A stretch of DNA of 64,000 nt from the NCBI GenBank assembly GCA_018268675.1, contig JAFDWB010000064.1, positions 1 through 64,000 of the forward strand. The letters are read 5' to 3'. The translations under genes and the position numbers were made by a program. The stretch's first letter is position 1; each line of letters opens with the position of its first letter. Positions 1 through 51,047 of this stretch are shown one piece after another. The notes below the pieces were generated by a model. It had not been told where the DNA came from. It saw only the letters and a list, made by a program, of their open reading frames with translations, and made no database searches. The DNA is from Actinomycetota bacterium. Its GTDB lineage: Bacteria; Actinomycetota; Thermoleophilia; Solirubrobacterales; 70-9.

Positions 1-342
1 ACCAGTCCGGCAAAAAGAACAGCTGACCGGGGTCGGCCGGGGAACGGGAGGTCCGTCACCCTTCCTCCCGTCTTCCTCGGACGTCCGGGACACGCTGCAG
101 CGACAGGTGTCGCTGGGACGACACCTGTCGCTGCAGCGAGCTCCGGGGCCCCGATCTTGGCCTTCAAATGGCACGGAAGTGTGACGTCCCCGACATCTTC
201 GTCACGATCCCGTGCCCTCTTCCCCACGCACCTCTCACGTCCCGGGCGCCTCATGGGGGTCACAGCCTGCCAGGACGCCCATGAGGCGCCCGGGACGCAT
301 CTCGGACGGCCGCCCGCGCCGAGGGCGCGGCCGTAGCCACAC
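1..342. repeat. Composite hairpin repeat, copy C1, in a gene-free stretch
   Basis: No gene is seen here. Bases ~33-310 match, in inverted orientation, ~40994-41268, and parts match 50733-50995. It holds two 20-bp perfect stems: CGCTGCAGCGACAGGTGTCG (93-112) pairing with 119-138, and CGTCCCGGGCGCCTCATGGG (238-257) pairing with 278-297. Between them, at 181-206, is a 26-mer starting GTGACG and ending CGTCACG, shared by all three copies. It lies just past the end of ispH. The first ~24 bases resemble the right arm of the hairpin at 27815-27853, so another terminator-like hairpin may straddle the window edge. Confidence 0.8.
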
Positions 343-2848: not shown

Positions 2849-3373
2849 ATGGGCCTCCTGCTCCTCCTTGCCTTCATCGTCGTCCCGCTCGCCGAGCTCT
2901 ACGTGATCATCCAGGTGGGCGAACTGATCGGCGTCGTGCCGACCCTCCTCCTGCTGCTGGCCGACGCGGTACTCGGGTCGTGGTTGATCAAACACCAGGG
3001 CCGGAGCGCCTGGCGCCGCTTCAACCAGGCGTTGGCGGAACGGCGCCTGCCGGGCAAGGAGGTCACCGGCGGCTTCCTGATCATCCTCGGCGGCGCCCTC
3101 CTGATCGCCCCCGGCTTCATCACCGACATCTTCGGCGCCCTGCTGCTGGTGCCGCCCACCCGCGCCGTCGCCCGCCGCATCCTGCGCCGCTTCACGATCG
3201 GCCGCGTGGCGGTCGTCGGGGTCCCGGTCGGGGCGGCGATGGGCGGCTTCGGCGCGGGCCGCGGAGGCGGGCGGGGCGCGAATCGCTCCTACGACTACGA
3301 CGTCGACGCCGAAGAGGTCCCCGACGAGCCTGAGTGGGACCACCGCCTCCCGCCCGCCGACCCTCCGCGTTGA
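2849..3373 (+). CDS. FxsA family membrane protein
   Basis: Cytoplasmic membrane protein of the FxsA family; E. coli FxsA was named for overcoming phage T7 exclusion by the F plasmid, and its general role is unclear. The 174-residue product starts with the diagnostic segment PLAELYVIIQVG, a second hydrophobic stretch, and then GGFLIILGGALLIAPGF (~71-87), all typical of the family. The tail (~130-174) is Gly/Arg-rich then acidic and variable. Its TGA stop (3371-3373) is part of the left arm of the 49-nt palindrome at 3369-3417. Confidence 0.9.
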   Translation: MGLLLLLAFIVVPLAELYVIIQVGELIGVVPTLLLLLADAVLGSWLIKHQGRSAWRRFNQALAERRLPGKEVTGGFLIILGGALLIAPGFITDIFGALLLVPPTRAVARRILRRFTIGRVAVVGVPVGAAMGGFGAGRGGGRGANRSYDYDVDAEEVPDEPEWDHRLPPADPPR

Positions 3374-3417
3374 TGGGCCGAAAACCTCTCTATATCAGCG
3401 CTTTTCGCCCCATCAAC
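3369..3417. terminator. 49-nt palindrome at a convergent junction, copy A1
   Basis: Left arm GTTGATGGGCCGAAAA (3369-3384) pairs with 3402-3417 with one mismatch; the 17-nt loop has TATAT at its centre. The left arm contains the stop of fxsA and the right arm the stop (3413-3415) of the facing gene. Copies with the same arms and length are at 13094 and 46875. Likely a bidirectional terminator. Confidence 0.75.
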
Positions 3418-6418: not shown

Positions 6419-6424
6419 TAGTCT
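6419..6424 (+). promoter_or_regulatory. -10-like box of the helicase-nuclease operon
   Basis: TAGTCT, 6 nt before the GTG at 6431. Confidence 0.5.
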
Positions 6425-6430
6425 GGACGG

Positions 6431-9400
6431 GTGCCGCTGAAACTGATCCTCGGACCCCCCAACTCGGGGCGCGCGGGCCTCGTCCGGCGTCGCTACCTGG
6501 ATGCCCTGGAGCGGGACCCGGTGCTGGTGGTGCCGACCGTCGACGACGTTTTCGCCTTCGAGCGCGAGCTCTGCGGGGCGGGCGCCGCCCTCGGCGGCAC
6601 GGTGCTCACCTTCGGCGCCCTGTTCGGGCAGATCGCCACCGCCGCGGGGCGCCCGCCCGGCGCCGTCCTCTCCCCCGCCCAGCGCCGCCGCTGCGTCGCG
6701 GTGGCGGTCGAGGAGCTGTCGGGGCGGCTCGGGCCGCTGCGCCGTTCGGCCGGGCGCCCGGGCTTCGCCGCCGCCTTCGCGCGACTGCTCGACGAGCTGC
6801 AGGCCGCCGGGGTCGGGCCGCCGCAGGTCGAGGCGAGCGCCGGCACCCTCGAGGGCTCCGCCTACCTCACCGACGTCGCCACCCTCTTCGCCGGTTACGA
6901 GGCGGCGCGCGAGCGCAGCGGCAGGCTGGACGCCGCCGGGATCGCCCGCGAGGCGGTCGGCCTCCTGCGCGCGGACCCCGGGCCGTGGGCGGGCCGCCCC
7001 ATCTTCCTCTATGGACTCGACGACCTCACCCCGCCGCAGTTCGACCTGGTCGCGGCGCTCGCCGCCCGCACCGAGGTCACGGTCGCGGTCCCCTTCGAGC
7101 CCGGCGACGAGGCGCTGGCGGCGCGCGGCCGGCTGCTGGGACAGCTGCGGGCGCTGGGGCCGGTCGAGGAGACGACCCTCGAGGCCGACCCGGCCAACAC
7201 CGCGAGCCCCCAGCTCTACGCCCTGGCGCGCGGCTTCGGCCTCCCCGAGGCGTCCCCCGCGCCTCTCCCCGAGCGCTCCGACCTGACCCTGCTGCGCTCG
7301 GCCGGGACCCGCGCCGAGGCGGAGGCGATCGCCGCCGAGGTCTCCCGCCTCGTCCGCGACGGCGCCGCCCCCGACGAGATCGCGGTCGCCCTGCGAGATC
7401 CCGGCCGCCGCGGCCCCGAGCTCGAAGCGGCGCTCGAGGCGAACGGGATCGCCGCCGCGCTCGAGGCCGAGGTGCCGGTGACCTCGACCTCGGTCGGCGG
7501 CGCCGTCGTCGCCCTGCTCGAGACCGCCTTCGGCAGCGGGCGGGCAGCCGACCTCCTGCGCTACCTCCGCGGACCTTCGGGCTTCCGCCCGGACTCGGTC
7601 GACTGGTTGGAGAAACGCATCCGCGGCGAACGGATCGCCGACGCGGCGACCGCGCTCGCGCGTTGGGGCGCCACCGACGGCGAGGAGCCGCGCGACCTGC
7701 GCCGCCTGCGCGACGCCGCCGCCGAATCCCCGGCCGCGCTCTGTGCCGCGGTCGCCGGGCTGGTCGGGACGATGGCCTCGCGCCCGTTCCGGACCGGCGA
7801 GGACGGGCCGCGCCTCGGCCCCGGCGACGGGCTCGAGCTGCGCGCCGCGGGCGCGATCGCGGCGGCGCTCTCGGAGCTCGCCGCGCTCGGGCCGCTCGCC
7901 CCCGCCCCGCAGCGCCTCGCGGAGACGGTCGCGGCGCTCGATTTCCGCGTCTGGAGCGGCCCGGTCGAGGGCCGGGTGCGGATCGCCAGCCCCTACCGCC
8001 TGCGCGCCGCGCGCTTCGACCACGTGCTCGTCGGCTCGCTGCAGGACGGCGAGTTCCCCCGCCGCGACCGCGGCGGCGACCCGTTCCTCTCCGAGGCGCA
8101 GCGGGAGCGGCTCGGCCTCGACCCCCGCCGCGACACCGAAGCCGAGGAGCGCTACCTCTTCGGCGTCTGCCTGGCGCTGCCGCGCCGGCGCCTCTTCCTC
8201 TCCTACCGCGACAGCGACGAGAACGGCGCCGCCGAGTCGCGCTCGCCGCTGCTGGAGGAGGTGCGGGCGCTGCTCGCCCCGCCGACGCCGGCCGACGGGG
8301 CGGCCGACCCGGTCGAGGCGGCGATCACCCGCGAGCGCGGCCTCGCCGACGTCGTCGCCCCCCTCGCCGAGGCGCCGTCCGCCGACGAGCTGGCCCGCGC
8401 CCTCGCCGCCCACGGCCCCGGCGCCGACCCCCGCGCTCTCCTCGCCGCGGTCGGGATCGACGACACCACCCCGCCCCCCACCTCGACGCTTGTCAACGAT
8501 ACGAAGACAAGCGTCGAGAGCGTCGGCCTCGTTGCCGCGCTCGAGGACCGGCTCCGGCGCGCGCGGCGAGCCGAGGCCGCGGCGCGGGCGCCGGGGCCAC
8601 TGACGAACCCCGCGGTGCTCGCGTCCCTTGCGGGGGTCGAGGCCTACGGCGGCACCACCCTGGAGGGGTTCGACGAATGCTCCTACCGCTGGTTCGCCGA
8701 CCACGAGCTCGACCCGCAGCCGCTCGACCCGGTGCCCGACCCGCTGGTCCAGGGCGGCCTCATCCACGCCGTGCTGGAGCGCCTGTATCGGGAGCGGCCC
8801 GGCGGCGATCCCCTCCCGCGCCCGGCGTCCCTGGCCGCCTGGATCGACCGCGGGCGTGCGCTCCTCACCGAGCAGCTGGCCGAGCGCGAAGTGGGCGGGC
8901 ATCCGGCCGAGCGGGCGATGGCGCGGCGGGTCGAGCGCCTGCTCGAGCGCTTCCTCGGCGAAGAGGCGGCGCGCGACACCGGCGGCTTCGAGCCGTGGCT
9001 GCTGGAGGCGGGCTTCGGCCTCGGCGAGGAGGCGGAGCGGCCGAGCCTCGACCTCGGCGGCTGGGGGCTCCACGGGGCGATCGACCGCGTCGACCGGGCG
9101 CCCGACGGCCGCGCCGTCGTCCACGACTACAAGCTCGCCGCGAGCGTCACCGCGCGCGACAAGTTCGAGGAGCGGGCGAAGCTGCAGTTGCCGCTCTACC
9201 TGCTCGCGGCGCAGATCCACTGGGGCGCCGAGCCGGTCGGCGGCATCTACCACCCGCTGCGGGGGACCTCGAACCGGCGCCCTCGCGGCGTCGTCGCGGC
9301 CGGGTCCGCGGCCGAGCTCGGCTACGACCTCTACCGCGGCGACGTGGTCGAGGAGGCGGAGCTGGAGGAGCTGCTGGAGCAGACGCGCGAGCGCGGGGCG

Positions 9401-9574
9401 GCGATCGTCGCCCGCATCCGCGCCGGCGAGATCCGCCGCGACCCCGGCCCGCGCGAGGGCCTCCGCGGCCACGATGTCTGCCCGACCTGGTGCTCCTTCG
9501 CGCCGATCTGCCGCCGCGACCGCGCCCCCTCTTATGTGGAGCGTGAAGAGAACGAGGCGGGGTGGGAGCGGTGA
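6431..9574 (+). CDS. AddB/AdnA-like helicase-nuclease subunit
   Basis: A 1047-residue partner subunit of a double-strand-end resection helicase-nuclease. It begins with a degenerate Walker A, GPPNSGRA (~8-15), where the Lys is Arg, so the ATPase is probably inactive as in AddB. The C-terminal PD-(D/E)XK nuclease shows GAIDRVDRAPDG followed by VVHDYKLA. Cysteines that may hold a 4Fe-4S cluster are FDECSYRWF (~750) and CPTWCSFAPIC near the C-terminus. The 33-nt palindromic element at 8484-8516 adds TLVNDTKTSVE at ~685-695, in a linker before the nuclease region. It is followed at once by the active helicase gene. Confidence 0.88.
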   Translation: MPLKLILGPPNSGRAGLVRRRYLDALERDPVLVVPTVDDVFAFERELCGAGAALGGTVLTFGALFGQIATAAGRPPGAVLSPAQRRRCVAVAVEELSGRLGPLRRSAGRPGFAAAFARLLDELQAAGVGPPQVEASAGTLEGSAYLTDVATLFAGYEAARERSGRLDAAGIAREAVGLLRADPGPWAGRPIFLYGLDDLTPPQFDLVAALAARTEVTVAVPFEPGDEALAARGRLLGQLRALGPVEETTLEADPANTASPQLYALARGFGLPEASPAPLPERSDLTLLRSAGTRAEAEAIAAEVSRLVRDGAAPDEIAVALRDPGRRGPELEAALEANGIAAALEAEVPVTSTSVGGAVVALLETAFGSGRAADLLRYLRGPSGFRPDSVDWLEKRIRGERIADAATALARWGATDGEEPRDLRRLRDAAAESPAALCAAVAGLVGTMASRPFRTGEDGPRLGPGDGLELRAAGAIAAALSELAALGPLAPAPQRLAETVAALDFRVWSGPVEGRVRIASPYRLRAARFDHVLVGSLQDGEFPRRDRGGDPFLSEAQRERLGLDPRRDTEAEERYLFGVCLALPRRRLFLSYRDSDENGAAESRSPLLEEVRALLAPPTPADGAADPVEAAITRERGLADVVAPLAEAPSADELARALAAHGPGADPRALLAAVGIDDTTPPPTSTLVNDTKTSVESVGLVAALEDRLRRARRAEAAARAPGPLTNPAVLASLAGVEAYGGTTLEGFDECSYRWFADHELDPQPLDPVPDPLVQGGLIHAVLERLYRERPGGDPLPRPASLAAWIDRGRALLTEQLAEREVGGHPAERAMARRVERLLERFLGEEAARDTGGFEPWLLEAGFGLGEEAERPSLDLGGWGLHGAIDRVDRAPDGRAVVHDYKLAASVTARDKFEERAKLQLPLYLLAAQIHWGAEPVGGIYHPLRGTSNRRPRGVVAAGSAAELGYDLYRGDVVEEAELEELLEQTRERGAAIVARIRAGEIRRDPGPREGLRGHDVCPTWCSFAPICRRDRAPSYVEREENEAGWER
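8484..8516. repeat. 33-nt palindromic element inside the AddB-like gene, copy P1
   Basis: Arms CGACGCTTGTC (8484-8494) and GACAAGCGTCG (8506-8516) flank an 11-nt loop. Read in the gene's frame it gives TLVNDTKTSVE. The same 33 bases, in the same codon phase, occur in thrB (28330-28362), and a variant is intergenic at 20935-20967. Confidence 0.9.
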
Positions 9575-12500: not shown

Positions 12501-13098
12501 GGCGAACGGGTGGGGCGAGCCCTCGGCGGAGCTGGCGCGGCGGCACGCGTCGGCCGCGGGGCTCGACCTGGACGGTGCAGGTGCGGAGGAATTGCTGGGG
12601 CCGGTGCGGGACTGGCTCGGCTCGCCGCTGCGGGAAGAGATCGCCGGGGCCGCGCGAGCGCGTGCCGAGGTCCCGATCCTGCTCGGGGCAGGGGGCACCG
12701 TGCTGCGGGGTTCGATCGACCTGTTGGTGGAGCGCGAGGAGGCACCACCGCTGGTCGTCGACTATAAGACCGACCGCCTCGGCAGCGAGGACCCGGCGGC
12801 TCGCGCCGAGCACTACGAGATCCAGCGCTCGATCTACGCGATGGCCGCGGCGGAGAGCCTCGGCGCGAGCGAGGTCGAGGTCGCCTACGTCTTTCTCGAG
12901 CGCGCCGACGCCCCGGTCCGCACGATCCTCACCGCCGCCGACATGGAGGCCGGCCGCGCCCGCATCGAGGCCGCCGTCGCCGCGATCGGCGCCGGCGACT
13001 TCTCCCCCGCCCCCGAGCCCGAGCGCACCTGGGACCTATGCCGCGGCTGTCCCGCCCTCGGCCGCCTCTGCTCCGGCCCCGGCGATCCACCAGGTTGA
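9562..13098 (+). CDS. UvrD/AddA-like ATP-dependent helicase-exonuclease
   Basis: Active superfamily 1A helicase-nuclease, 1178 residues, expected to resect double-strand breaks with the AddB-like partner. Motifs in order: Walker A AGAGSGKT (~36-43), TFTDKAAAELRARV, TIHGFCNRVL, DEFQDTNRLQL (motif II), GDELQSIYSFRHADL (III), NFRSRPEVI, HNAKGLEFEVVAV and VAATRARERL (VI). The nuclease shows GSIDLLVE with VVDYKTDR. Cysteines ECAYRFY and CRGCPALGRLC could hold a second Fe-S cluster. The start may be GTG 9562 or GTG 9571; both overlap the previous gene. The TGA stop comes from the palindrome at 13094. Confidence 0.93.
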   Translation: MGAVSAATPVEPAVERSPTPEQRAAIEARGRDVLLEAGAGSGKTGVMVERYVRLVVDEGVSPDAVLAFTFTDKAAAELRARVRAELARRAAGTGAAAVRAAALLSTVGGAWITTIHGFCNRVLAAHPVAAGVDPGFRVLDQPEAERAAREAFDAALAEFLAASDPAREETVAAYDLEGLRAVVVASQDELRSRGVAEPALPDPPATDPAEALARAIEAAGECLEELASGNGRRAALEDALARLTQPGPPPSLAELEALRPGGTAKALGPFRDALEEAIARTAEAGEGGVAYRHLADLLRLYTAAFEAAKARRAGIDFEDLQILAARLLERAEIGGAYRGRFSHLLVDEFQDTNRLQLRLIEALQGPRSQLVVVGDELQSIYSFRHADLDVFRRRREEIDADPGAELMRLSGNFRSRPEVIGAVNLFGAALLGPAYRPLRVGAPPAKPAPRGSGPAVELHLTARDGWDEEGIDLDPAIDGRTPLNCLAEARTLAARLRELHDAGVERGAMVVLLRAFTHLDAYEDSLARAGLRPYVVGGRGYWSQQQVADVTALLATIANPLDDEALFGALASPACAVAPDTLWLLRAAAGRRRHVWPALERLALGGEAELAEPERLGEIPAGERELLAEFATQMVGLRARAPRLGLAGLVEAAVTETGYDLATLLRPAGEARLANVRKLSRLAAAYEEREGRDLRGLLDFLAARAEADSEAQAATAAEGHDGVRIMTVHNAKGLEFEVVAVPDLARGLLSGGRRPVLALGREQPPRVGLQWRRLGRASVNLYDYGELIEAGEARDSEEGLRLFHVAATRARERLILSGVVKPEPSKELRPGTAVVERLVETLGMPRDEDSEVVVPAPEARPGLEEEFGPSEIAVHVNAPSPERAAELRDLHLDTAADRPLGSGTPPLVERQPPIVPARPLSYTAISAFEECAYRFYMERVLGLPAAAAAGGTGAGDEGPSAREERSARGAAVHALLEWSQANGWGEPSAELARRHASAAGLDLDGAGAEELLGPVRDWLGSPLREEIAGAARARAEVPILLGAGGTVLRGSIDLLVEREEAPPLVVDYKTDRLGSEDPAARAEHYEIQRSIYAMAAAESLGASEVEVAYVFLERADAPVRTILTAADMEAGRARIEAAVAAIGAGDFSPAPEPERTWDLCRGCPALGRLCSGPGDPPG

Positions 13099-13142
13099 TG
13101 GGCCGAAAACCCGCCTATATGTCGCGTTTTCGGCCCATCAAC
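13094..13142. terminator. 49-nt palindrome at a convergent junction, copy A2
   Basis: Perfect 16-bp arms: GTTGATGGGCCGAAAA (13094-13109) and its complement at 13127-13142, with a 17-nt loop containing CTATATG. The left arm contains the TGA stop of the helicase gene; xseB on the other strand ends 15 nt beyond the right arm. Confidence 0.78.
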
Positions 13143-20934: not shown

Positions 20935-20967
20935 CGACGCTTGTCTTCGTATCGAGGACAAGCGTCG
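20935..20967. repeat. 33-nt palindromic element, intergenic copy P3
   Basis: Arms CGACGCTTGTC (20935-20945) and GACAAGCGTCG (20957-20967). It matches the in-gene copies at 8484 and 28330 except for a few loop bases. It lies between two divergent genes. Confidence 0.85.
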
Positions 20968-27871: not shown

Positions 27872-28792
27872 TCAGAGCTCGGGGACGTCGACGCCGAGCG
27901 GTTCGAAGGGGAGGCGGCGGACCTCGGCCCAGCCCTCGCAGCGCTCCTTCAGGGCCGCCGCGACGCCGCCCGCGTCGTCCCAGGTCGTCCAGACGAGGAC
28001 GGTCGGGCCGGCGCCCGAGATCGTCGCCCCCAGCGCGCCGAGCTCGGCCGCCGCGTCGACGATCTCCATCGAGCGCGGGTAGAGCGCGCGCCGGCGCGGC
28101 TGGTGGATGCGGTCGTGGAGGCCGCGGCGGACCAGGTCGAGGTCGGCGCTCCGCAGTCCCAGCACCAGCAACGCCGCGGCGGACACGTTGGCGACCGCGT
28201 CGCCCAGCGGCAGCTCCGCCGGGATCGCCTCCCGGGCGAGCCGCGTCGAGACCTCCTCGCCCGGGATCACCACGACCCCCTCGAGCCCCTCCGGCGCCTC
28301 GAACCGCGCCGCAAACACCCCCGCTCCCTCGACGCTTGTCTTCGTATCGTTGACAAGCGTCGGAACGCCGGCTGCAGAGCAGACGACGAAGCCGCCGTAG
28401 ATCGCCGCTGCGACGTTGTCGGGGTGGCCCTCGATCGCGGTCGCGCGGGCGAGCAGCTCCTCACGCGTGAGCGCCAGCTCGAAGAGGTGGTCGGCGGCAG
28501 CGAGGCCCGCGACGATCGCCGCCGCGCTCGACCCGAGCCCTCGCGCCAACGGGATCTCCGAGCGCAGCCGGAAGGCGATCCCGTCCGCCGGGTGCAGCGT
28601 CTCGAAGGCCCGCACGAGCAGGTTCTCGCGCCCCGTCGGCACCGCCAGCCCGCCGGGATCGAACGAGTACTCCCCCGCCTCTTCGACCTCCAGCTCCAGG
28701 TGCAGGGCCACCGCCGCCGCCATCGCGTCGTACCCCGGCCCCAGGTTGGCCGAGGAGGCGGGGACGCGGACGAGTCGGTGCCGGGCGGTCAT
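27872..28792 (-). CDS. thrB: Homoserine kinase with in-frame palindromic insert
   Basis: GHMP kinase that phosphorylates homoserine for threonine synthesis. The 306-residue protein has motif 1 PASSANLGPGYDAMA (~11-25), the ATP loop PLARGLGSSAAAIVAGL (~83-99) and motif 3 GATISGAGPTVLV (~251-263). At ~144-154 the 33-nt palindromic element adds TLVNDTKTSVE between strands CSAAGVP and EGAGVFAARF, probably a surface loop. The ATG at 28792 overlaps the ATPase stop by 4 nt (ATGA). The frame is open further up, but only as antisense to nothing credible. Confidence 0.95.
   Translation of the reverse strand: MTARHRLVRVPASSANLGPGYDAMAAAVALHLELEVEEAGEYSFDPGGLAVPTGRENLLVRAFETLHPADGIAFRLRSEIPLARGLGSSAAAIVAGLAAADHLFELALTREELLARATAIEGHPDNVAAAIYGGFVVCSAAGVPTLVNDTKTSVEGAGVFAARFEAPEGLEGVVVIPGEEVSTRLAREAIPAELPLGDAVANVSAAALLVLGLRSADLDLVRRGLHDRIHQPRRRALYPRSMEIVDAAAELGALGATISGAGPTVLVWTTWDDAGGVAAALKERCEGWAEVRRLPFEPLGVDVPEL
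28330..28362. repeat. 33-nt palindromic element inside thrB, copy P2
   Basis: Same 33 bases as 8484-8516 on the opposite strand. Read in the thrB frame it again gives TLVNDTKTSVE, with the element's first base at the second codon position in both genes. Confidence 0.92.
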
Positions 28793-29925
28793 CGCAGGTG
28801 ATCCTCGCCGCCATTGTGTTGCAATTCGACAGCCCAGCGCGCGAGCAGCGGGTCGACCGGCTGCCATCCCCCCTCGACTTTGCGGACCTGGCCACCACGG
28901 ACCAACGCTTCGCGGGCGTAGCGGGCGCTGCTCTTGGAGAGGTTGAAGCGGGTCAAGGTCCGCTCGGCGAAGAGACCCGCGCCACCAACCGCAAGAGCCG
29001 CGAAGACGGCCTGTTCTTTCGTCTCCAGGGAGTCCCAGGCCGCCCTCAGCGCCTCGTCATGCTCGGCGAACACCGTGGTCACGGCCCGCTGCCAACACTC
29101 GGCGTCCGCTGCCTGGTCGATCGGGGTCTGCTCCCACAGCTGATGAGCCAGGAGCATCGCCCGCTGAGGATGCCCGGCGGCAAGATCGAGCAGGGGATCG
29201 AGTGCCGCACCCACGCTGCGTCGCGTCTTCTCGAATCGCCCACTGACGTATTCGGCGATGTCGAAATCGGCCAGCGGCGCCAACTCGAACGCTCTTGCCT
29301 GGCCGAAGAACGGCCGCTCGTACCGGCCGAAGAGCTCGTTCATCAGGCCGGGATGTGACCCGGCGAAGATGTAGCTCGCGGCGTCGCCGTGGCGCTGGAT
29401 GCGACTGCGGAAGAGCCCGTCGATGCCGGGGCCCACCGCCAGGAGTGCCTGGAACTCGTCGAAGGCGACCAGGGTTCTCTTGCCGGTGCGCTCGAAGAGG
29501 CCCACCGGAAGATCGAGCAAGCCGGAGAGCAGCCGTTTCGTCCGTTCCTCGACCCGCGGGCGCGAATCGACCCGCACCGGGCCACCGCCGACGCTGATCC
29601 CGGGACGAAGCGCGCGGATCGCCGACCGGGCCAGCTCGCCCGCTCGCGACCGGATGACGGCATACCCGTCTTCCATTCGTTCGGCGACCTCGATCTCGGA
29701 GAGGACGCCGTAGAAGTCGACCTCCACGTAGTTCATCCCGATCGCTTCGGCGTCGCGGCCGAGCCGCCGCAGCAGGCTCGTCTTGCCGTAACGCCGCGGT
29801 GCCGAGAGTCGGACCGCGTGTCCTCCCTCGGCCAATGCCAGAAGCCGCTTCGACTCTTCGTCCCGATCGATCAGGTCGTCGGGATCGACGGGCTGGCTGA
29901 AGACGAAGGGATTGAGCGCGTCCAT
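28789..29925 (-). CDS. AAA-type ATPase inserted in the threonine operon
   Basis: A 378-residue ATPase like the archaeal-ATPase/DUF234-type group. Walker A is SAPRRYGKTSLLRRLG (~42-57), Walker B TLVAFDEFQALL (~151-162), a sensor-like SYIFAGSHPG follows, and the C-terminus (~290-375) looks like a winged helix (TRFNLSKSSARYAREALVRG). Its role is unknown; such STAND-like ATPases are often mobile. It lies between thrC and thrB, overlaps thrB by 4 nt, and is visibly less GC-rich than its neighbours, suggesting acquisition. ATG 29925 is chosen (a TTG one codon up is possible). A perfect palindrome sits 5 nt before the start, with no clear ribosome site. Confidence 0.85.
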   Translation of the reverse strand: MDALNPFVFSQPVDPDDLIDRDEESKRLLALAEGGHAVRLSAPRRYGKTSLLRRLGRDAEAIGMNYVEVDFYGVLSEIEVAERMEDGYAVIRSRAGELARSAIRALRPGISVGGGPVRVDSRPRVEERTKRLLSGLLDLPVGLFERTGKRTLVAFDEFQALLAVGPGIDGLFRSRIQRHGDAASYIFAGSHPGLMNELFGRYERPFFGQARAFELAPLADFDIAEYVSGRFEKTRRSVGAALDPLLDLAAGHPQRAMLLAHQLWEQTPIDQAADAECWQRAVTTVFAEHDEALRAAWDSLETKEQAVFAALAVGGAGLFAERTLTRFNLSKSSARYAREALVRGGQVRKVEGGWQPVDPLLARWAVELQHNGGEDHLR

Positions 29926-40980: not shown

Positions 40981-41346
40981 TTCTTCGTGGGCGGCGCGGC
41001 CGTCCGAGTTGCGTCCCGGGCGCCTCATGGGGGTTCCTGGCAGGCTGTGACCCCCATGAGGCGCCCGGGACGTGAGGGGTGCGTGGGGAAGAGGGCACGG
41101 GTTCGTGACGAAGACGTCGGGGACGTCACGCTCTCGTGCCATTTGAAGGCCGAGATCGGGGCCCCAGAGCTCGCTGCAGCGACAGGTGTCGTCCCGGCGA
41201 CACCTGTCGCTGCAGCGCATCCCGGACGCCTGAAGAAGACGGGAGGAAGAGTGACGGACCTCCCTCTCCCCGGCCGAGGGCCCTCTCTGACGAGGCCGCG
41301 TCCCTTCCCCCTTCGGGCGCCGGCTCGCGAGCCCAGCTCCGGGAAC
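40981..41346. repeat. Composite hairpin repeat, copy C2, at a convergent junction
   Basis: No gene is seen. ~40994-41268 is the inverted near-copy of ~33-310. A 23-bp perfect stem has arms at 41012-41034 and 41050-41072; a 20-bp perfect stem has CGCTGCAGCGACAGGTGTCG (41172-41191) and 41198-41217. The shared 26-mer is at 41104-41129. It separates the facing genes ending at 40980 and 41347, so it probably stops transcription from both sides. Confidence 0.82.
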
Positions 41347-46874: not shown

Positions 46875-46923
46875 GTTGATGGGCCGAAAAGCCCTGATAT
46901 AGAGCACTTTTCGGCCCATCAAC
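46875..46923. terminator. 49-nt palindrome at a convergent junction, copy A3
   Basis: Perfect 16-bp arms: GTTGATGGGCCGAAAA (46875-46890) and 46908-46923, with a 17-nt loop holding GATATAG. Here both neighbouring stop codons lie outside the arms. Same length and arms as 3369 and 13094. Confidence 0.78.
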
Positions 46924-50597: not shown

Positions 50598-51047
50598 ACG
50601 AAGTTTCGTGGTTCGTGGGGGGGATGGAAGGCTTGCCGGCTGACGCCCAGGGAAAAGGGACGGGCCGTCTCGTCCACGACCCGGGCGGGCTGTGGCCGTG
50701 GACGAGACGGCCGGGTCCGTGGGGAGAGGGATCGTGACGAAGATGCCGGGAACGTCACCCTTCCTCCCGGCTTCCTCGTTGGTCAGAAAGACGCGTCGAA
50801 TATTGGGGCGCTCAGGGCTCCCCAATGTGCGGAGCAGCGTCCCAGGGGCCTGGTATCGGCCTCCCGAGGGCCGGGAGGTGTGACGTCCCCGGCATCTTCG
50901 TCACGACCTGTGCCGGCTTCCCCACGCACCCCTCCCGACCCGGGCGCCTCATGGGGGTCACAGCCTGCCCGGACCCCCATGAGGCGCGCGGGGCACCTCG
51001 GACGGCCGCAAGCCCTCGACGCTTCTCCACGCTTCGCCCGGAAGCCC
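50598..51047. repeat. Composite hairpin repeat, copy C3, at a convergent junction
   Basis: No gene is seen in 450 bases between facing genes. A 26-nt arm at 50733-50758 pairs with 50880-50905 (25 of 26). A 16-bp stem has arms 50663-50678 and 50697-50712; ATTGGGG (50802-50808) pairs with 50820-50826. The arm at 50880-50905 and the stretch up to ~50995 match copies C1 and C2, with the 3' hairpin more diverged. The whole could fold into a large branched structure. Confidence 0.8.

Follow-up and report, generated by a model that had tools for sequence, protein, structure and literature searches.

A 33-nt protein-coding palindromic element in an actinobacterium of the Solirubrobacterales 70-9 lineage

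The 64-kb stretch analysed here (the window; positions 1 to 64,000 of contig JAFDWB010000064.1 from an actinobacterium of the Solirubrobacterales 70-9 lineage) carries three copies of a 33-nt palindrome, one in an AddB-like gene, one in thrB and one between genes (Table 1). Our searches revealed this 33-mer to be a protein-coding palindromic element that works like the Rickettsia palindromic elements (RPEs), far shorter than these, apparently distinct in sequence and actinobacterial; we further consider it probable, at roughly 80%, that it represents one family of genus-restricted short mobile hairpin elements in Solirubrobacterales of the 70-9 type.

Results

Census and anatomy of the element

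The pattern CGACGCTTGTC-N11-GACAAGCGTCG had full matches in the window at 8484, 20935 and 28330, as compared to 0.00 full matches in 100 dinucleotide shuffles of the same DNA. As stated in a preliminary description of the window, the copy at 8484-8516 is the exact reverse complement of that at 28330-28362, i.e., the 33-mers are identical but on opposite strands, and the variant copy is intergenic; the latter is the same 33-mer with a loop different from both window gene copies, and its position between divergent genes is the rarer setting.

Table 1. Copies of the 33-nt element in the window and the genes that host them
Feature	Position	Strand	Remarks
AddB-like open reading frame (ORF) hosting the element	6422..9574	+	Pfam scan: ADDB_N weak, PD-(D/E)XK nuclease
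33-nt element within the AddB-like gene, read STLVNDTKTSVE	8484..8516	+	Insert is residues 689-699
Intergenic copy, most frequent loop type (CTCGATACGAA on the - strand)	20935..20967	-	Between two divergently oriented genes
thrB (homoserine kinase)	27872..28867	-	Insert between GHMP N and C domains
Same 33-nt element within thrB, read PTLVNDTKTSVE	28330..28362	-	Without counterpart in all 11 congeneric ThrB

A search of the whole genome identified 40 copies with exact arms and ~53 when up to two mismatches were allowed, with no genome match to a reversed control pattern. The 11-nt "loop" first described is itself nearly palindromic, and most of it extends the stem by four pairs around an apex of 3 nt. 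The genome-wide consensus is a 15+3+15 hairpin, CGACGCTTGTCCTCG-ATA-CGAAGACAAGCGTCG, with an apex of ATA or TAT and symmetric ends (CGACG...CGTCG), and the two identical window gene copies have AACG instead of CTCG, leaving 13 of 15 stem positions paired. Copies were found in both orientations, their borders sharp at 33 nt and uniform to the base, within flanks that are unrelated and different for every copy. The flanking DNA is C-rich on the left and G-rich on the right, the base at +1 being a purine in 41/42 copies and that at -1 a pyrimidine in 35/42. Uninterrupted extension of the stem into the flanks was slightly longer than in re-paired flanks (1.35 vs 0.89 bp, p 0.0005). We rejected the hypothesis that the targets are themselves hairpins, flank-to-flank pairing over 3-8 nt being no better than in re-paired flanks. 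The common form of the 33-mer is open in all six frames; as ~15-30% of random palindromes are also open in six frames, this openness is no proof of selection for stop-free palindromes, an idea that we likewise set aside.

Copies inside genes

We read 51 copies in context, of which 34 are intergenic, 16 lie in ORFs and one (L039:13878) was assigned to neither class. The 16 copies are in frame within 14 intact genes, each adding 11 codons without a frame break. Single copies occur in the genes for the AddB-like protein, ThrB, the lipoamide acyltransferase E2, a BtuF-like receptor, a C5 DNA methylase, a RibD-C protein, WS/DGAT, a MoaD-MoaE fusion, a GT2 protein, BirA, an ArnT-like membrane protein and a small membrane protein, and two copies each in a Gfo/Idh/MocA oxidoreductase (L034:12334 and 13206) and a ThiO-like FAD oxidase (L058:16537 and 17103), where one copy is internal and the other occupies the last residues before the stop. 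Ten host ORFs were scanned against Pfam, nine of them with a match, and the remaining gene names come from sequence recognition.

The coding sites are loops, linkers or C-terminal tails, probably tolerant ones. The inserts fall between or outside Pfam domains in E2, MoaD-MoaE, WS/DGAT, ThrB and AddB; that of the AddB-like protein lies upstream of its PDDEXK_1 domain (residues 745-1031; Pfam scan), and that of ThrB, when aligned to homologues of solved structure, coincides with a likely beta-hairpin turn. Solvent exposure was judged from such linker or inter-domain positions and from the ThrB turn; the AlphaFold model of ThrB, with a mean predicted local distance difference test score of 44, was discarded.

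In the window, the AddB and ThrB copies are both translated in the TLVNDTKTSV frame, as had been pointed out. Genome-wide, however, the 16 coding copies use three codon phases (7 in the TLV frame, 7 in the DAC frame and 2 in the RRL frame), so the shared phase of the window pair is partly coincidence and is not a general rule. The AACGATACGAA (Asn) loop variant is limited to three copies (window 8484, window 28330 and L045:9958), and because all of these are inside ORFs (AddB, ThrB and GT2) and in the same reading frame, they suggest a coding sublineage. In this genome, appreciable entry into ORFs is peculiar to the 33-mer (14/50, vs 1/82 for other palindrome families; p 4e-6).

Empty sites in congeners

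For comparison we used a genus set of 12 genomes, comprising this genome (G000) and congeners designated by G-numbers (among them G001, G003, G005, G006, G007, G008 and G011). The ThrB insert was missing in 11/11 congeneric orthologues and the RibD insert in 5/5 congeners compared, both being confined to this species among those compared. RibD is a clean empty site: deleting exactly 33 nt restores the relatives' GAACCCGGCGGC at the junction, with a one-codon difference further on. At this single site there was no target-site duplication, a criterion for miniature inverted-repeat transposable elements (MITEs). The dispersal of copies with unique flanks, together with the empty orthologous sites, points to mobility by copying and supports the spread by insertion proposed at the outset.

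Intergenic placement

Although 88% of the DNA is coding, 34/51 copies are intergenic (p 4e-20), and 20 of these 34 follow a stop codon at a distance of no more than 30 nt, vs 12.6% expected (p 2e-10), with only three between divergent genes. This placement, which matches that reported for repetitive extragenic palindromes (REPs; PMC3733652), is what would be seen if the copies were functional RNA 3' hairpins, either terminators or mRNA-stabilising structures, kept after stops, the in-gene copies being incidental spill-over. We regard this as unlikely. The T-tract of a terminator is missing and the right flank is G-rich; 16 copies lie within ORFs; and there was no Rfam match in the window besides a tRNA. 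In addition, Watson-Crick changes in the stem are common and G-U pairs nearly absent, which points to a DNA palindrome and not to an RNA stem.

Related palindromes in the genus and shared loops

Of the 12 genus genomes, 10 have a related core, TTGTNNCCC-NNN-GGGNNACAA, as against 0/139 other genomes of the order. The full related elements span 33 to ~50 nt, with TTGT/ACAA conserved and outer pairs that covary, nearly always as Watson-Crick and not G-U pairs. A scan of all genomes for the 33-mer itself identified, outside this genome, only two congeneric metagenome-assembled genomes (MAGs) and three unrelated singletons (Phycisphaerales, Kineosporia and Porphyromonadaceae); the latter look like isolated hairpins, two of them followed by T-rich DNA. 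Neither the 33-mer nor the wider core had any match in viral contigs (0 hits each), and carriage by phages was rejected on this ground. Plain palindrome density in the genus was not clearly above that of other genera.

The loops that hold the element here often hold a palindrome elsewhere: one scoring at least 9 was found in 18/53 orthologous loops, vs 1.7% of 1024 random windows. The ArnT loop has other palindromes in G003, G006, G008 and G011 and is empty in G007; the BtuF-like loop has others in G005, G006, G008 and G011 and is empty in G003 and G007; and the WS/DGAT, MoaD-MoaE, ThiO, C5 methylase and BirA loops have other palindromes in at least one congener. The copies in this genome show 0 differences from copies at other loci, yet at six of seven loci 8-22 of 31 positions distinguish them from their orthologous copies (E2, with 3, is the exception), while the coding DNA flanking the orthologous loops is ~15-17% diverged. 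This contrast suggests that the permissive loops are hot spots, or that resident elements have been replaced.

The alternative, offered for RPE-4/6/7 in a study of Rickettsia japonica that met the same puzzle of hot spots or divergence (PMC3767692), is that the insertions are ancestral, were passed down to many species and diverged in place, with no hot spot and little recent mobility. The ArnT copies of G008, G006 and G003 can indeed be aligned, the nearest orthologue differing at 4 of 31 positions, and at WS/DGAT this genome and G006 share a junction at which the G006 copy is decayed, so some sites are older. Inheritance is improbable as a general account, given the identity of copies within this genome against their distance from orthologues, the ThrB and RibD inserts found only in this species, and the short empty loops of several species, including G007 at WS/DGAT and ArnT, where its sister G006 has an element. 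We also rejected concerted evolution as a feature of every species: only 9/23 orthologous copies had their nearest source within their own species, so that it is clear for this genome and G005 only. We speculate, with considerable reserve, that an active family might home to loops already holding a palindrome and overwrite the resident, through homing or gene conversion between non-homologous hairpins; if so, protein loops would be permanent docking sites whose peptide is rewritten at each new family takeover.

Other palindromic repeats

A second 33-nt palindrome family, GTTCCTTATG-N13-CATAAGGAAC, has 54 copies in this genome, 98 in G006 (one of them inside birA) and 4 in G001, and was found in 0 of 75 sampled genomes outside the genus. 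A 49-nt family, GTTGATGGGCCGAAAA...TTTTCGGCCCATCAAC, has an AT-rich centre and three copies in the window (3369-3417, 13094-13142 and 46875-46923); in 719 kb of this genome there were 17 copies, almost all outside ORFs. A composite repeat of 250-300 nt (window 33-313, 40996-41277 and 50727-51000; 92% identity over 248 nt, inverted) holds long hairpins (CGCTGCAGCGACAGGTGTCG... and GCCTCATGGGGGTCACAGCC...) and is possibly a MITE.

Discussion

On the reading that we favour, that of a short mobile hairpin family, a unit of exactly 33 nt has spread to ~50 sites in both orientations and would be copied and inserted by a trans-acting machinery that leaves no detectable target duplication; our best guess for the mobiliser is a putative enzyme of this kind. 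Insertion would take place in C-rich/G-rich targets, with a pyrimidine before and a purine after the element. Insertions that break genes or promoters would subsequently be purged by selection, so that copies remain just after stops and in tolerant protein loops. Successive families may have taken the same permissive loops, which are probably hot spots, and the added peptide would need no useful function.

Several observations weigh against this account. RibD, a variant copy, is the only clean empty site at the nucleotide level, the length difference exceeding 33 nt in ThrB, MoaD-MoaE and BirA and falling short of it in BtuF; loops other than that of RibD are too variable in length for the gain to be fixed exactly. 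The loci of the hot-spot test were picked because this species has the element there, and the source is a draft MAG (4.2 Mb, 95 contigs). Mobility is deduced from comparisons, no movement having been observed, and no mobilising enzyme was identified.

It is also conceivable, if quite improbable, that hairpin fragments owe their insertion to capture by non-homologous end joining at double-strand breaks, and not to a transposase. Ku is present in 12/12 genus genomes, RibD has a net gain of precisely the element without duplication, and the REP-associated tyrosine transposase (RAYT) is missing. Such capture, however, predicts ragged ends and truncated copies, whereas the observed boundaries are uniform to the base, and Ku is common in bacteria without such repeats. 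Canonical REPs mobilised by a RAYT (an IS200/IS605-type Y1 transposase) would likewise be small hairpins, mostly intergenic and downstream of genes, but can be dismissed with near certainty, as the stem is 15 bp, there is no GTAG tag, and PF01797 was absent from 12/12 genus genomes, this one included, while the same profile had matches in 5 control genomes.

The likeness to RPEs suggested by the preliminary description holds for in-frame entry into ORFs at loops, linkers and tails; about two thirds of the copies, by contrast, are intergenic and REP-like, near stops, and neither the length nor the structure of RPEs is matched. Like RPEs, especially RPE-4/6/7, the 33-mer is a palindrome dispersed both between genes and in frame within conserved ORFs; RPE-4/6/7 also insert into ORFs at exposed sites, and the orthologous loops of other species hold different element groups (PMC3767692). 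RPE units are 105-146 bp long (PMC2229807), as opposed to 33 nt here, and the near-perfect hairpin, the high-GC actinobacterial host and the several congeners with empty loops further separate the two. The 33-mer does not contain the ATGAC motif of RPE-4/6/7. Wolbachia palindromic elements (WPEs) are reported as in-frame palindromes in addA, addB and priA, in regions of ~170 nt or more (PMC4224334), and the biotin ligase gene carries elements in both Rickettsia and Wolbachia (PMC3767692); here too AddB-like and BirA genes are occupied, although in another phylum and by shorter palindromes.

Similarly, the CGTC- and GTAG-tagged REPs are short hairpins downstream of ORFs, with some inside genes. 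CGTC REPs, which also occur without a dedicated transposase, have an 8-9 bp stem, a 4-5 nt loop and an unpaired CCA-like tail (PMC3733652), unlike the 15-bp stem, 3-nt apex and symmetric ends of the 33-mer; GTAG REPs terminate in an unpaired GTAG and can be linked with RAYTs (PMC3733652), unlike an element ending in CGACG...CGTCG in a genus without PF01797. Actinobacteria are not among the phyla given for REPs in that study (PMC3733652). The coding palindromic repeats of the free-living archaeon Methanocaldococcus jannaschii, through their citation in PMC2229807, provide a lead only. A limited literature search found no report of such elements in Actinobacteria, in keeping with the preliminary description, whose author knew of none in this lineage.

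Most descriptions of protein-coding palindromes come from Rickettsia and Wolbachia, for which genome decay offers a possible explanation. The lineage studied here, whose position suggests a soil-type, free-living lifestyle, offers a recently amplified 33-nt version outside the Rickettsiales, with the same loop empty, occupied or differently occupied in congeners. Two questions thereby become testable: what copies the elements, and whether inheritance, hot spots or replacement accounts for the shared sites. The element also illustrates how enzymes repeatedly gain 11-residue loops, the genes of this lineage being remodelled by tiny spreading hairpins, as in Rickettsia and Wolbachia.
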